Assembly: GCF_024704835.1 (NCBI RefSeq)
Contig: NZ_JAMXBE010000003.1
Location: 62,001-126,000, forward strand
DNA: 64,000 nucleotides
Direction: 5' to 3'
Source: Parapedobacter tibetensis
GTDB lineage: Bacteria > Bacteroidota > Bacteroidia > Sphingobacteriales > Sphingobacteriaceae
This document shows, one piece after another, positions 12,801-17,129 of the stretch. Within the stretch, counting starts at the first letter, position 1; the number at the start of each line of letters is the position of its first letter. The position numbers and the translations under genes are program-made. The notes under the pieces were generated by a model. The model was not told the DNA's origin, ran no database searches, and saw only the letters and a list, made by a program, of their open reading frames with translations.

Positions 12801-12874
12801 TCGCATAACGACTGGCCATGGCGAACATCCATCATTTCAAGGAGATCAGTACCAACAAAATAAACGAACATCAT

Positions 12875-13765
12875 ATGAATCCTTCAACAAACAAAGAAAA
12901 TGCTGTAACGATTATTGGTCTAGGTCCGATGGGACAGGCCATGGCAACGGTATACCTAAACAAAGGTTACCGTGTAACCGTGTGGAATCGCACCGCCAGT
13001 AGGGCCGACGGCCTCGTTGAAAAAGGAGCCGTAAAGGCAAGTACAGTTGCTGATGCCCTACGGGCCAGCGAATTGGTTATCTTGAGTTTGACCGATTACG
13101 AGGCGATGTATCCTATCTTTGCAGGATCCGAAGACGCATTAGCAAACCGACTCATCGTCAACCTGAGTTCAGACACGCCCGACAAGACCAGAGAAGCAGC
13201 CGCATGGCTGAAAAGCCACGGAGCCGAACTCCTCGTGGGTGGTGTCATGGTTCCCGCCGAACTTGTGGGGAAAGAAGGGGCATACGTATTTTACAGTGGA
13301 CAGAAGACGGTTTTCGAGACGCATGAAGCGACATTGCGGCTAATAGGCAAACCTGACTACGTTGGCGAGGATCCCGGGCTCGCGCAACTCTACTACCAAG
13401 CTCAGCTCGATATCTTCCTTACATCGTTAGCCGCATACTTGCATGCCACCGCACTGGTCGGTTCAGCAGGGGTTTCCGCAAAGACATTCCTCCCCTATGC
13501 GATTGAAACGTTTGATTCCCTGTCGGTTATCGGTGGGTTGGCAGAAGCCGCTGATCATATCGATGCGGGCAAATACCCCGGTGAGATGGCCAACGTCATT
13601 ATGATGGGTGCCACCGCGGATCACATTGTTGGAGCTAGCCGTGCTGTTGGAATCAACTCCCGCCTACCGGAAGCCGTGAAGGCGCTTTATGACCGTACAA
13701 TTGCGACAGGCCATGGAAAAGACGGCTGGCCTAGTCTATTTGAGGCTATTAAAAAGAATTCATAA
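12875..13765 (+). CDS. NAD(P)-dependent oxidoreductase, imine-reductase / 6-phosphogluconate-dehydrogenase-like
   Basis: The 296-residue protein has an N-terminal Rossmann fold with VTIIGLGPMGQAMA and an Arg-containing NADPH site after the second strand (VWNRTASR). The C-terminal half is all helical, as in the beta-hydroxyacid dehydrogenase superfamily, with the imine-reductase type sequence LYYQAQLDIFLTSLAAYLHA and the end motif TIATGHGKDGWPSLFEAIKK. Such enzymes reduce cyclic imines or carry out reductive aminations, but the natural substrate is unknown. ATG 12875 places the nucleotide-binding strand at the usual distance; ATG 12818 adds 19 uncharacteristic residues. It is followed by a broken second copy. 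Confidence 0.85.
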   Translation: MNPSTNKENAVTIIGLGPMGQAMATVYLNKGYRVTVWNRTASRADGLVEKGAVKASTVADALRASELVILSLTDYEAMYPIFAGSEDALANRLIVNLSSDTPDKTREAAAWLKSHGAELLVGGVMVPAELVGKEGAYVFYSGQKTVFETHEATLRLIGKPDYVGEDPGLAQLYYQAQLDIFLTSLAAYLHATALVGSAGVSAKTFLPYAIETFDSLSVIGGLAEAADHIDAGKYPGEMANVIMMGATADHIVGASRAVGINSRLPEAVKALYDRTIATGHGKDGWPSLFEAIKKNS

Positions 13766-13897: not shown

Positions 13898-14509
13898 TCA
13901 TTGCAGGCTACGCAACACGTCGGCAGCCTCCGATTCATCAATAGGGTGGCTATCATACTTGTGGTATAACTGAAGGAATTTAGAGGCATCCATGGGTTCT
14001 TCGGAAAGCACCTCCTTCATACCCCTGAAAAAATCTTCACGGTGCTGAGGGGGGTTGAAAAGCATCAGTGCCATGACTTCCTCATCCGTACCGTTGTAGA
14101 AACCATGGGGTGTGAACCGTGGGATATGGATGACACCCCCCTCCCCGATCTCCACTTCACGGTCGATCAATTGGACGGTCAACGTGCCTTTGGTGACCAC
14201 AAAGGTTTCATCCATAAACCGGTGGTAATGTAGTTTGGCACCAGACACTTGTGGAGCTAGTTTCACCTCATATAAACCCATTTGGTTATTGGTGGACTCG
14301 GTGGTGAGTTTGAACGTGAGTTTAGAACCCAGCATTTCAAGGGATTCACCTGCATCAGCAGCCATAACTACCGGAGCATTGACCAGTTTGTCTGCCAAAT
14401 AATCCTGTACACCCGATTTATTTCCTGCACCTTCCACCCTTGGTGTTTGTGCTTTTCCTGTTAATATATCCATGCTTAATACAATGATAATAATGATTTG
14501 TTTTGTCAT
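13898..14509 (-). CDS. Secreted cupin-domain protein, predicted ECF41 target
   Basis: From ATG 14509 the protein is 203 residues, with a signal peptide (about 1-20, ending TGKA before Q), so it is probably periplasmic. The cupin barrel covers about residues 60-150: LHYHRFMDETFVVTKGTLTVQ is motif 1 (in two parts, with the HxH and E metal ligands) and IPRFTPHGFYNGTDEEVMAL is motif 2 (with His). A small-molecule dioxygenase, isomerase or binding role is possible. The longer frame to 14566 would start upstream of the predicted promoter (14530-14556), so it is rejected. It lies 88 bases beyond the sigma-factor stop and carries its own ECF41-type promoter. Confidence 0.85.
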   Translation of the reverse strand: MTKQIIIIIVLSMDILTGKAQTPRVEGAGNKSGVQDYLADKLVNAPVVMAADAGESLEMLGSKLTFKLTTESTNNQMGLYEVKLAPQVSGAKLHYHRFMDETFVVTKGTLTVQLIDREVEIGEGGVIHIPRFTPHGFYNGTDEEVMALMLFNPPQHREDFFRGMKEVLSEEPMDASKFLQLYHKYDSHPIDESEAADVLRSLQ

Positions 14510-14529
14510 GATTCCCGTTTTGTGGTAAA

Positions 14530-14556
14530 GACAAAACAGTATACCGAAACGTGACA
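14530..14556 (-). promoter_or_regulatory. ECF41-type promoter of the cupin gene
   Basis: On the minus strand TGTCACG (14556-14550), 16 bases of spacer and TGTC (14533-14530) match the published ECF41 consensus TGTCACA-N16-CGTC closely. The 11-base block TGTCACGTTTC and the end TGTCTT are shared with the promoter at 15921-15947. The predicted start is about 10-15 bases before ATG 14509. Confidence 0.7.
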
Positions 14557-14597
14557 AAATTGTCAAAATGTTTGAGCTGTAGTCCCGTACACCATGC

Positions 14598-15449
14598 TCA
14601 GTGAACCTGGATATGTCTTATCTTCTCTGGATCGACAATCGAATTAATCTGGGTGATTTTCCCTTCCTCCGGCGACATTTCAAATACTTGGCAAACCTTA
14701 AGCTCACCGTCATGGTAATACAATAAGGCCGGCTGGTGGTTTACCTCTCCCATTACGATTTGATAGCTCGATTGATACTGATGATAGACAAATAATAACA
14801 GATCGGCCACGTCCTGCGATCCGATGCAAAGTTTCTTAACCACCTGGAGTTTAGCGCCACCATCCGCATAAAATACGATGTCTTCGGCAAGCAATTCCTC
14901 TATATGGGTCATATCCTTGCTTCGGATTGCTTCTATATACTTATCCAGCATGGCTTTGGTTTCCATTTTTGTATGAATCGCTTTTGGTGACACTTTTCCA
15001 GTTTTGAACAGCTTGTCTTTTGCCCTACTTAGCAATTTACGCGAATTTTCCTCCGTGATGTCCAATGTATCGGCAATCTCTTGGTGAGCATAGTCAAAAC
15101 TTTCCCTTAGGATAAATACCGCACGCTCCTGGGCATTCAGCCTTTCCAGCAGTACCAGTAACGAATAAGAAAGGATATCCTTGAGGTGCACATCCCTGTC
15201 GGCATCTTCGGTGGCAACAGGTTCGGGTAACCACACATCATTATGGGTGATCCGTTTATTTCGGTTCTTGATATTGATAGCCCTATTGATCACACTTCTG
15301 ATCAGGTAGTTGCGTTCATCGGCAATTCCATCTTTTGGCAGTGTGATAAACTTTAATAACACATCCTGTATGGCATCCCTCGCATCATCTGTGGATCCCA
15401 AGATATTATAAGCGTATGGAAATAATAGGTGTTGGTAATCGGTACTCAT
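14598..15449 (-). CDS. ECF sigma factor, group ECF41, with fused SnoaL-like regulatory domain
   Basis: The 283-residue sigma factor has region 2 (about 1-65), region 4 (about 88-148, with AQERAVFILRESFDY and EIADTLDITEENSRK) and a C-terminal SnoaL-like domain (about 160-283). The three ECF41 marks are visible: WLPEP in the linker (73-77), DGGAK (196-200; family DGGGK/R) and DPEKI near the C-terminus (273-277; family NPDKL). In ECF41 the extension takes the place of an anti-sigma factor and tunes activity from inside the same chain. It is preceded by a SnoaL-like gene (65-base gap, probably cotranscribed) and followed by a cupin gene. Both have promoters of the matching type. Confidence 0.93.
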   Translation of the reverse strand: MSTDYQHLLFPYAYNILGSTDDARDAIQDVLLKFITLPKDGIADERNYLIRSVINRAINIKNRNKRITHNDVWLPEPVATEDADRDVHLKDILSYSLLVLLERLNAQERAVFILRESFDYAHQEIADTLDITEENSRKLLSRAKDKLFKTGKVSPKAIHTKMETKAMLDKYIEAIRSKDMTHIEELLAEDIVFYADGGAKLQVVKKLCIGSQDVADLLLFVYHQYQSSYQIVMGEVNHQPALLYYHDGELKVCQVFEMSPEEGKITQINSIVDPEKIRHIQVH

Positions 15450-15514
15450 TTTTCTAACTTCATATAAATGGCTAGGGCATCAAATGCCAAAGATAAGGGA
15501 TATAGGATACAAAC

Positions 15515-15892
15515 CTATGAGACTATCGGTTCAGTATGTGGGTAGTTGCCAACCACTTTCCATTGGCCGTTTTCGTCTGCTATAAGTGCAATAAACGAAA
15601 TAAACTTGAATGTCGGTCGATATAAATGGACCTTTACCATGGCAAGTGCTCCCGCCCGATCCACGGACTCTACGTGTATTTCCCTAGGTGTGCCCCCAAA
15701 TACCTTTTGCTCAATAAGCGAAAGATAAGCTTCCTTATCGATGTTGAATACGCCTTTTTGTTCAAAGAAGCCACTTTGCAAGTTTCTATAATTAGCATGC
15801 AGTACGGCATCCAGTTTTTGGATATCTTGCTCGTCCCCTCCCTTTACAAAGTCAGTTACTACGCTTAAGATTTCATTCTCTGCTGATTCCAT
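15515..15892 (-). CDS. SnoaL/NTF2-like protein, predicted ECF41 target
   Basis: The 125-residue protein has the NTF2-like pattern of a long N-terminal helix (ENEILSVVTDFVKGGDEQD), a short helix with the family aromatic/Asn region (LDAVLHANYRNL), and a curved sheet ending in KVVGNYPHTEP. It is annotated in many genomes as a nuclear transport factor 2 family protein. The fold serves as a hydrolase, isomerase or binding scaffold; the ligand is unknown. ATG 15892 is chosen because the longer frame (15925) begins inside the predicted ECF41 promoter. It shares its fold with the C-terminal domain of the sigma factor encoded next to it. Confidence 0.82.
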   Translation of the reverse strand: MESAENEILSVVTDFVKGGDEQDIQKLDAVLHANYRNLQSGFFEQKGVFNIDKEAYLSLIEQKVFGGTPREIHVESVDRAGALAMVKVHLYRPTFKFISFIALIADENGQWKVVGNYPHTEPIVS

Positions 15893-15920
15893 AATGTGTT
15901 GTTTTGATATTTTTATAGAA

Positions 15921-15947
15921 GACAAGTTTCACGAGGGAAACGTGACA
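15921..15947 (-). promoter_or_regulatory. ECF41-type promoter of the SnoaL-like gene and sigma factor
   Basis: On the minus strand TGTCACG (15947-15941), a 16-base spacer and TGTC (15924-15921) repeat the arrangement found before the cupin gene, including TGTCACGTTTC. It precedes ATG 15892 by about 28 bases. If the sigma gene is cotranscribed, this gives autoregulation. Confidence 0.7.
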
Positions 15948-15968: not shown

Positions 15969-17129
15969 TTATTTCACCAGCCTCGCCACAAACATGCTGT
16001 CTGCCTTATGCAGGTATCCACACAGCATATCCATCCGTTCAAGCCTGAGGCTATGGTGCGCTTGCAAGTGTTCTATTACGTGTTCATTCTCCGCTGAAAA
16101 TACGGAGCATGTGATGTAAATAAGTGGCTTTCCGGGCTTCAGGTGTTTCACCATATTGCCGGCAAGCTGTTTCTGCAGTGTGGCAAAGCGGCCAATCGAC
16201 TGTTCGTCAAATGCGGATATCTGCTCCGGTGTGCGGCCCCATGTACCGGAACCCGTGCAGGGTGCATCTAAGATCATGCCATCAAACTGCTCATCTCCAA
16301 GTATAGTATCGGCATCTTTGGAAAGATCGATGATTTTACGCCTATAGGATTTGATTCCCGCTGCTTCAAACCGTTCATCCAGGTTGCGCAGGATGCTGTT
16401 TCGTGTATCCGACACCAATAGGTTCACACTGGGATTGCTATCGAGCAATAAAAGTGATTTTCCGCCCGAGCCCGCACAGGCGTCCCACCAGTGTTCACCT
16501 GCGGACGCTTCAAAATATGCGGCCGTTTGCTGTGAAGATTTATCCTGCACTTCATATTTCCCGGCTAGACCAGGGATACGGTCCAAGGCCGTACCGTTGG
16601 GCAGGGCGATAGTAAAATCGCTTAGCTTCTGGTAAGGGATATTTTCTTTTTCCAATATACTAAGCACCTCAGTTTCGTGAGCATGACGTAAGCGGATAAA
16701 CAAATCAGGCTGTGTGAACAGGCTATATGTAAACCCAAGTTGGTCTACACCAGCTGATAAATGCGATGTATAAGGGAATACATCGGCCAACCGGAATGCG
16801 GTATAGTCTTCCAATAACGCAATTTTTTGGGATAGCTCATCGGAGATATGAGAATAAAGCTCCGGTAGCAACAACTGGGCTACGGCGCTATCTTTGCTAC
16901 ACAAGAACTCAGCCAAGGCCAATCGATCCGGCAACGGACTTTTTGCGGCTGCAAGTCCAATCCGGAAATAATTATAAGCTAGACGCGATGCTATGCGCCT
17001 ATCAGCAGATCCCATCTGGCGATTCCGCTTGTAAAACCCCGAAAGGAAACGGGCCAATGGTTCATCGCCCGAATATTCCTGCAAAAGGCGTTCAACCGTA
17101 CGGATTTGTTGCTGTATGCGTTTTTCCAT
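15969..17129 (-). CDS. RsmB/NOL1-family RNA (cytosine-5-)-methyltransferase
   Basis: The 386-residue protein has a helical NusB-like N-terminal half and a C-terminal SAM-dependent methyltransferase domain. Visible motifs: the SAM-binding DACAGSGGKSLLLL, the DAPCTGSGTWGRTPEQ motif with one catalytic Cys, and ITCSVFSAENE with the second Cys, both required for the C5-methylation chemistry of the RsmB/RsmF family. The likely target is 16S rRNA; whether it is C967 or another site cannot be decided. It follows the guaA-lipoprotein pair by 64 bases on the same strand and probably belongs to that transcript. Confidence 0.9.
   Translation of the reverse strand: MEKRIQQQIRTVERLLQEYSGDEPLARFLSGFYKRNRQMGSADRRIASRLAYNYFRIGLAAAKSPLPDRLALAEFLCSKDSAVAQLLLPELYSHISDELSQKIALLEDYTAFRLADVFPYTSHLSAGVDQLGFTYSLFTQPDLFIRLRHAHETEVLSILEKENIPYQKLSDFTIALPNGTALDRIPGLAGKYEVQDKSSQQTAAYFEASAGEHWWDACAGSGGKSLLLLDSNPSVNLLVSDTRNSILRNLDERFEAAGIKSYRRKIIDLSKDADTILGDEQFDGMILDAPCTGSGTWGRTPEQISAFDEQSIGRFATLQKQLAGNMVKHLKPGKPLIYITCSVFSAENEHVIEHLQAHHSLRLERMDMLCGYLHKADSMFVARLVK

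Follow-up and report, generated by a model that had tools for sequence, protein, structure and literature searches.

An ECF41-type sigma factor locus of Parapedobacter tibetensis with SnoaL-like and cupin genes as predicted targets

Which genes does an extracytoplasmic function (ECF) sigma factor of the ECF41 type control when its direct neighbors are not the carboxymuconolactone decarboxylase, oxidoreductase, or epimerase genes that are the norm for this group? The question is raised by a locus in a 64,000-nucleotide stretch of Parapedobacter tibetensis DNA (contig NZ_JAMXBE010000003.1, positions 62,001 to 126,000), hereafter the window. Three genes follow one another on its minus strand: a SnoaL-like gene (15892-15515), a sigma factor gene (15449-14598), and a cupin gene (14509-13898). 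The sequence confirms an earlier, preliminary description, in which an ECF41-type sigma gene lies between SnoaL-like and cupin genes that are each preceded by the same motif. The locus is probably an ECF41-type sigma locus of a Bacteroidota variant, in which promoter P1 (15921-15947) is predicted to drive the SnoaL-like gene, and probably the sigma gene itself, and promoter P2 (14530-14556) the cupin gene. Comparison with related loci suggests a real, repeatedly rewired circuit of a known type, with targets unlike the textbook ones.

The sigma factor and its characterized relatives

The sigma gene encodes a 283-residue protein with Pfam matches to Sigma70_r2 (29.9 bits, cut-off 24) and Sigma70_r4_2 (43.7 bits, cut-off 25.7), followed by a SnoaL-like C-terminal domain that scores 17.9 bits against SnoaL_2, below the cut-off of 27. 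The C-terminal motifs of ECF41 proteins are of the DGGGK and NPDKL type. All three motifs named in the preliminary description, WLPEP, DGGAK, and DPEKI, are present, as is NHQPA. WLPEP sits in the linker, as in ECF41, and DGGAK and DPEKI are recognizable yet altered, as in a 28-member group of the tree described below. In ECF41, the C-terminal extension measures about 100 residues and is SnoaL-like in its fold. It has three conserved motifs (PMC3426412). Residues 6-277 align with Mycobacterium tuberculosis SigJ (structure 5xe7), including the C-terminal extension; the window protein nevertheless scores below the curated cut-offs for SigJ (NF007214, 189.4 versus 271 bits) and SigX4 (TIGR02957, 224.6 versus 323.25). 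A paralogue in the same genome with canonical motifs reaches 270.1 on TIGR02957, likewise under the cut-off. The earlier assignment to the ECF41 type is borne out: most ECF41 features are present, and the protein appears to resemble an ECF41 member in its workings.

The ECF41 systems of Bacillus licheniformis (ydfG), Rhodobacter sphaeroides (RSP_0606), and Sinorhizobium meliloti (RpoE9) resemble the window locus in combining sigma-2 and sigma-4 domains with a fused C-terminal domain and a WLPEP motif (PMC3426412, PMC6180224). They also share a -35 TGTCAC, a spacer of 16, an adjacent promoter-bearing target that often heads an operon with the sigma gene, and the lack of an anti-sigma gene; in the window, Pfam identified no anti-sigma gene among the SnoaL-like gene, the cupin gene, and the next gene past the cupin. 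The window locus differs from these systems in its -10 element (TTGTCTT, not the consensus CGTC), in its DGGAK and DPEKI motifs, and in its predicted targets, a cupin and a SnoaL-like protein rather than a carboxymuconolactone decarboxylase. The ECF41 promoter and its dependence on the sigma factor have been demonstrated in B. licheniformis and R. sphaeroides; the C-terminal domain restrains the sigma factor, and target genes bear a TGTCAC promoter (PMC3426412). In the available text of that report, neither an inducing condition nor a phenotype was found for ECF41. The ECF56 pair SigG1-RsfG, compared here by description only, offers another sigma factor with a SnoaL_2 extension; it differs in being named with a partner, RsfG (PMC7730460).

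The promoter motif in the window, the genome, and relatives

P1 reads TGTCACGTTTCCCTCGTGAAACTTGTC, then TT, and P2 reads TGTCACGTTTCGGTATACTGTTTTGTC, then TT; P2 occupies the same place in two relatives, L108 and L078. The mechanically called reading frames start too far upstream. From the likely start codons, ATG at 15892 (SnoaL-like) and 14509 (cupin), the last base of TGTC is 28 and 20 bases away, respectively. Both sites contain the -35 TGTCAC and the spacer of 16 ± 1 of ECF41 promoters, with TGTC at -10 versus the consensus CGTC; the mapped B. licheniformis promoter has TGTT there (PMC3426412). The pattern TGTCACG-N16-TGTC matches the window at these two places only, even at one mismatch, and the sites further have TGTCACGTTTC and TTGTCTT in common. 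The preliminary statement that the motif occurs exactly twice therefore stands for the window and fails for the genome, where further sites exist. In 100 shuffles of the window scanned at one mismatch, the mean was 0.67 matches, and 13 shuffles had at least two, so the short pattern by itself is weak evidence. The genome-wide scan proposed earlier gave four exact matches to this 11-base pattern, and at up to one mismatch its 47 places equal the 47 of a reversed control. One of the exact matches (G000:C67:211575) was set aside; it has two mismatches to the longer form described next and lies inside a predicted coding sequence.

Because the short pattern does no better than chance genome-wide, a 17-base form, TGTCACGTTT-N12-TTGTCTT, was adopted. 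It has three exact and two one-mismatch sites in the 5.98-Mb genome, versus 0.036 sites expected at up to one mismatch with uniform bases; a further site, C5:120548, has two mismatches to it. A weight matrix was built from 43 distinct sites of other loci, with the window locus excluded and one source locus (L031) belonging to the same genome. Its scores for the two window sites are 29.4 and 27.3, and all other sites in the window stay at or below 8. In 20 mononucleotide shuffles, each scanned on one strand, the top scores range up to 20.1.

Three of the five genome sites lie outside the window locus. Two are at a second ECF41 locus 26 kb away (L031 5528-6799; G000:C23:50528-51799), whose sigma gene (G000:C23:49691-50512) encodes a protein 46% identical to the window sigma factor. 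One of these sites directly follows the sigma gene and precedes an NADPH-dependent FMN reductase gene; the other precedes a short gene whose best Pfam match, ABM, is below the cut-off. The fifth site (C67:205472; L149 3472-4066) stands 67 bases ahead of an unlinked gene whose SnoaL-like product resembles a lipoprotein and matches DUF4440 and SnoaL_4 above their cut-offs. The same promoter at the second locus and before an unlinked gene makes the picture of a two-gene regulon too narrow. Thus, the target set given in the preliminary description, SnoaL-like plus cupin, is right in that both genes carry an ECF41-type promoter and incomplete in that others carry it too.

These sites also imply that two sigma factors may share targets. 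Both closer ECF41 paralogues, or chiefly the second one, could act at the window promoters, in which case neighborhood would not define the regulon; we consider this a serious possibility, somewhat short of an even chance. It is favored by the four near-identical sites at the two loci and by the identity of the second paralogue to the window sigma factor in sigma-4 (63%) and sigma-2 (57%), with NSRKL-SRA-KL kept. Set against this, each sigma gene adjoins its own sites, and the C-terminal domains are 41% identical, so the signals may differ. The contrast between promoter-binding and sensor domains would be in keeping with two sensors that act on a single type of promoter, which is a hint at most. 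A third ECF41-like gene (C23:3141-3950, L148), with canonical DGGGK and NPDKL, has no strict site at its locus even though its product is 61% identical to the window protein in sigma-4 (36% in sigma-2); sigma-4 identity therefore does not discriminate.

Conservation was examined in 301 genomes of the family, 38 of which match the sigma factor at E 1e-40 or better. The 44 loci scanned comprise 40 stretches from family genomes, the window, the two further loci of its own genome, and Crocinitomix (L078), the one relative from a genome-contig search. A strict motif falls between -40 and +150 bases of the sigma stop codon in 32 of the 44 loci, and 17 of those 32 have a second strict motif within 700 bases upstream. 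In the same places of the 44 loci, the reversed motif has no match; elsewhere, the forward motif matches 8 times in 1.08 million strand-bases. When either CGTC or TGTC was permitted, only TGTC was seen past the sigma stop, or TGTT in two loci.

The motif also follows the sigma gene between genomes. The consensus TGTCACRT-N15-TGTCTT occurs 33 times in 23 of the 301 genomes, and 27 of these occurrences are within 2 kb of an ECF41 gene (hand count). It is present in 21 of the 38 sigma-bearing genomes versus 2 of the other 263 (Fisher p 6e-20, a value that ignores relatedness and comes from a pattern shaped on such sites). The reversed control has 26 matches in 25 genomes (hand count), 5 in sigma-bearing genomes and 21 in others. 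That the window sites are a chance pair, or belong to an unrelated regulator, is highly improbable: the shuffles in which the short pattern matched at least twice would allow it, whereas conservation in the same place and co-occurrence with the sigma gene speak against it. Conservation, together with the weight matrix trained without the window locus, led us to reject the chance pair. Motif, place, conservation, and linkage, like the tree below, can be read from sequence directly.

In sigma-less genomes, the forward consensus (2 matches) is rarer than the reversed control (21, hand count). The two genomes with a site and no close sigma gene have generic ECF matches only, and no same-strand open frame was found within 1.5 kb after either site. 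A class-wide search for further sigma genes of this kind gave matches at E 1e-60 or better in 4 of 395 genomes. Two of the four were already in the set; of the additions, L212 carries the motif ahead of an ABM-like gene, and in L213 no motif lies within 3.8 kb. Unlinked sites were also observed in relatives, before an aldo/keto reductase gene (L176 1501-2638, G225) and before an unannotated 431-residue gene (L157, G204).

Targets and the sigma-factor tree

The genes around the sigma genes form 261 clusters, 49 with more than one member; Pfam names were assigned to part of these clusters, from a single member of each. Within 250 bases past the sigma stop, the first same-strand gene encodes a carboxymuconolactone decarboxylase in 12 of the 44 loci and a flavodoxin-fold, azoreductase-like protein in 10, 9 of which are followed by a SnoaL-like gene. 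The remaining loci have a YCII (7), cupin (3), FMN reductase (2), ABM-like (2), lone SnoaL (1), or unnamed (1) gene, or none (6). As the preliminary description had it, the window locus departs from the decarboxylase, oxidoreductase, and epimerase (COE) norm, its direct neighbors being SnoaL-like and cupin genes by Pfam. In PMC3426412, 107 of 373 ECF41 cases have the arrangement >COE>>ECF>, 97 of them with a promoter before the first gene; about 30% of ECF41 have no such neighbor, and cupin-fold genes were noted at four ECF41 loci in 2012.

The split sigma gene L143 was kept in the motif table and excluded from the tree. In this tree, which is unrooted and comprises 43 sigma factors, a branch with support 98/94 separates 28 of them. 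In all 28, D replaces the N of NPDKL, and in 27 the third G of DGGGK is changed or gapped, or the motif is DAG, the exception being L110. None of the 28 has a decarboxylase directly downstream; their downstream genes are azoreductase-like, ABM-like, YCII, cupin, or SnoaL. Conversely, all 12 sigma factors with a decarboxylase downstream have DGGGK and NP(D/E)KL, as do L138, L144, and L148. Outside the tree, L143 is an exception, an altered-motif sigma gene with a decarboxylase upstream behind a site. Six azoreductase-type loci (L122, L124, L128, L129, L132, and L133) have an additional decarboxylase gene farther upstream. Cupin targets (two changes) and ABM/FMN targets (four changes) are scattered in the tree and are not single groups; targets have therefore changed more than once. 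Such repeated change of the target enzyme under a constant promoter narrows the chemistry to look for, and the group offers natural target-swap pairs for finding the signal.

Several side observations concern these loci. In L128 and L129, two sites lie in a stretch covering about 4.6 kb before and 1.8 kb past the sigma gene, with decarboxylase, ABM-type (judged by eye), DUF4440-type, azoreductase, and SnoaL genes between the sites or after them; a relative of the reductive-aminase-like gene at 12818-13765 of the window is in the same stretch. Seven ECF41-type genes (L114, L115, L116, L117, L118, L121, and L123) are paired with YCII genes. A YCII-related gene likewise accompanies the ECF42 gene rpoE10 (PMC6180224); ECF42 differs in having tetratricopeptide repeats rather than a SnoaL domain. 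Besides L143, the ECF41 gene of G270 (L189) is broken, and its SnoaL gene persists beside it.

The protein that the preliminary description called a SnoaL protein (15515-15892, 125 residues) is NTF2/SnoaL-like by superfamily, but its Pfam match is Lumazine_bd_2 (PF12893, 47.8 bits, cut-off 22.1), which we take to be a member of the NTF2 clan, and not a SnoaL model. A single-sequence structure model (predicted local distance difference test, pLDDT, 66) gave no PDB fold match at E ≤0.001; the NTF2-like 3fka ranked second, with a template-modeling (TM) score of 0.33. With six SnoaL proteins as queries, 20 of the 301 genomes yielded 21 matches. Twelve of the 14 close full-length copies adjoin an ECF41 gene (that of G270 being broken), and in G225 the SnoaL gene, on a different contig from its sigma gene, has the promoter 22 bases before its ATG. 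The window copy precedes the sigma gene and has a promoter of its own, whereas the azoreductase group has the SnoaL gene downstream, in second position. SnoaL thus appears to be a recurrent ECF41 target. The cupin (13898-14509, 203 residues) begins with a stretch that resembles a signal peptide, as judged by eye. Its nearest solved relatives are quercetin dioxygenases (E 8.5e-08); the family and structure searches used a sequence with one extra leading codon. At E 1e-30, it is found in 5 of the 301 genomes, two of which (the window genome and G045) have it beside ECF41 genes with the motif, and the Crocinitomix cupin is a third ECF41-linked case. In both L108 and L078, the cupin is downstream of the sigma gene with the motif.

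Other findings weigh against an ECF41-type circuit with these two targets. The 11-base pattern is at chance level genome-wide, and L148 is motif-less at a sigma-4 identity close to that of the second paralogue. Among the SnoaL copies, G121 is close yet lacks both sigma gene and motif, as do seven more distant or fragmentary ones in the stretches retrieved. L108, whose sigma factor is nearest to that of the window (66%), has the cupin yet no adjacent SnoaL gene, and three cupins of 45-53% identity have no ECF41 gene or motif. Finally, the tested places are without a strict motif in 12 of the 44 loci. Read by eye, ten of these 12 have a site that varies in sequence, spacing, or position: a one-base change (L031, L112), a shifted -10 (L132, L133), a weaker -10 (L144, L145), a site elsewhere (L119, L143), an upstream site with spacer 15 (L110), or a site just beyond the tested range (L127). 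No motif of any kind was seen by eye at L109 and L148.

Proposed operation of the locus

We propose that the fused SnoaL-like C-terminal domain would permit activity, upon which the sigma factor would guide RNA polymerase to TGTCAC(G/A)TTT-N12-TTGTCTT. Transcription from P1 would cover the SnoaL-like gene and then probably the sigma gene by read-through, giving self-amplification, and P2 would drive the cupin gene. The gap between the SnoaL-like and sigma genes is 65 bases, and no terminator-like stem was found in it, so the P1 transcript would probably include the sigma gene. The likeliest purpose would be clearance of a small reactive compound sensed by the C-terminal domain. Family names suggest that the targets, small enzymes and pocket proteins, act on quinone-like or aromatic molecules, the chemistry being flavin-dependent quinone or azo reduction, ABM-type quinol oxidation, and that of cupin and decarboxylase-fold proteins. 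Recognition by these sigma factors, read-through, and the chemical signal are inferred.

The preliminary description also suggested that the SnoaL protein competes with the sigma factor's regulatory domain for a ligand, an idea that found no support. When the profile of the SnoaL family was compared with that of the sigma C-terminal domain, the probability was 22% over 31 columns, a weak test given the shallow SnoaL profile; no sequence kinship beyond these columns was found. Neither DGG-K nor DPxK was seen in the SnoaL alignment. A broader version, in which the SnoaL-like protein reports or buffers the signal by binding the same ligand as the C-terminal domain or by pairing with that domain, is unlikely. 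The association of close SnoaL copies with ECF41 genes, including the promoter-bearing unlinked copy in G225, is in keeping with it, as is the promoter before the unlinked SnoaL-like lipoprotein gene. Moreover, the window locus is outside the azoreductase-SnoaL clade, so the SnoaL tie arose or was kept at least twice. The limited kinship and the contact motifs not seen count against it, and such a SnoaL gene is present in just 11 of the 44 loci and absent from the nearest relative. The structure models (pLDDT 66 and 50) are too low in quality for pockets to be compared. A combined scheme appears quite unlikely: a multi-site regulon common to two paralogues, with the SnoaL-like protein as a soluble twin of the sensor domain that would bind the same aromatic or quinone-like molecule and tune the sigma factor by ligand uptake or by pairing with its C-terminal domain.

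Returning to the ECF41-type circuit itself, PMC3426412 concludes that ECF41 generally controls one gene or operon, and one target per sigma factor was also found in S. meliloti (PMC6180224). The predicted distant sites offer a direct test of this one-target rule. No SnoaL-type ECF41 target and no experimental ECF41 work in Bacteroidota were found in the open-access literature listings searched. These listings likewise gave no record of the group with altered motifs and its changes of target, of the SnoaL target, of the promoter common to two paralogues, or of the distant sites, all of which may be in print elsewhere.

A housekeeping promoter for the sigma gene was considered and rejected: a TAnnTTTG element is present at 15495 (-), upstream of the gene, yet no full housekeeping promoter matched on the minus strand between 12400 and 18500. 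The gene past the SnoaL-like gene (15969-17129) encodes an RNA methyltransferase, as judged by eye. Finally, a TTGACA-17-TATACT match (11 of 12 bases) at 14538-14566 (-) overlaps P2; it is probably irrelevant in a Bacteroidota host and could mislead reporter tests in Escherichia coli.

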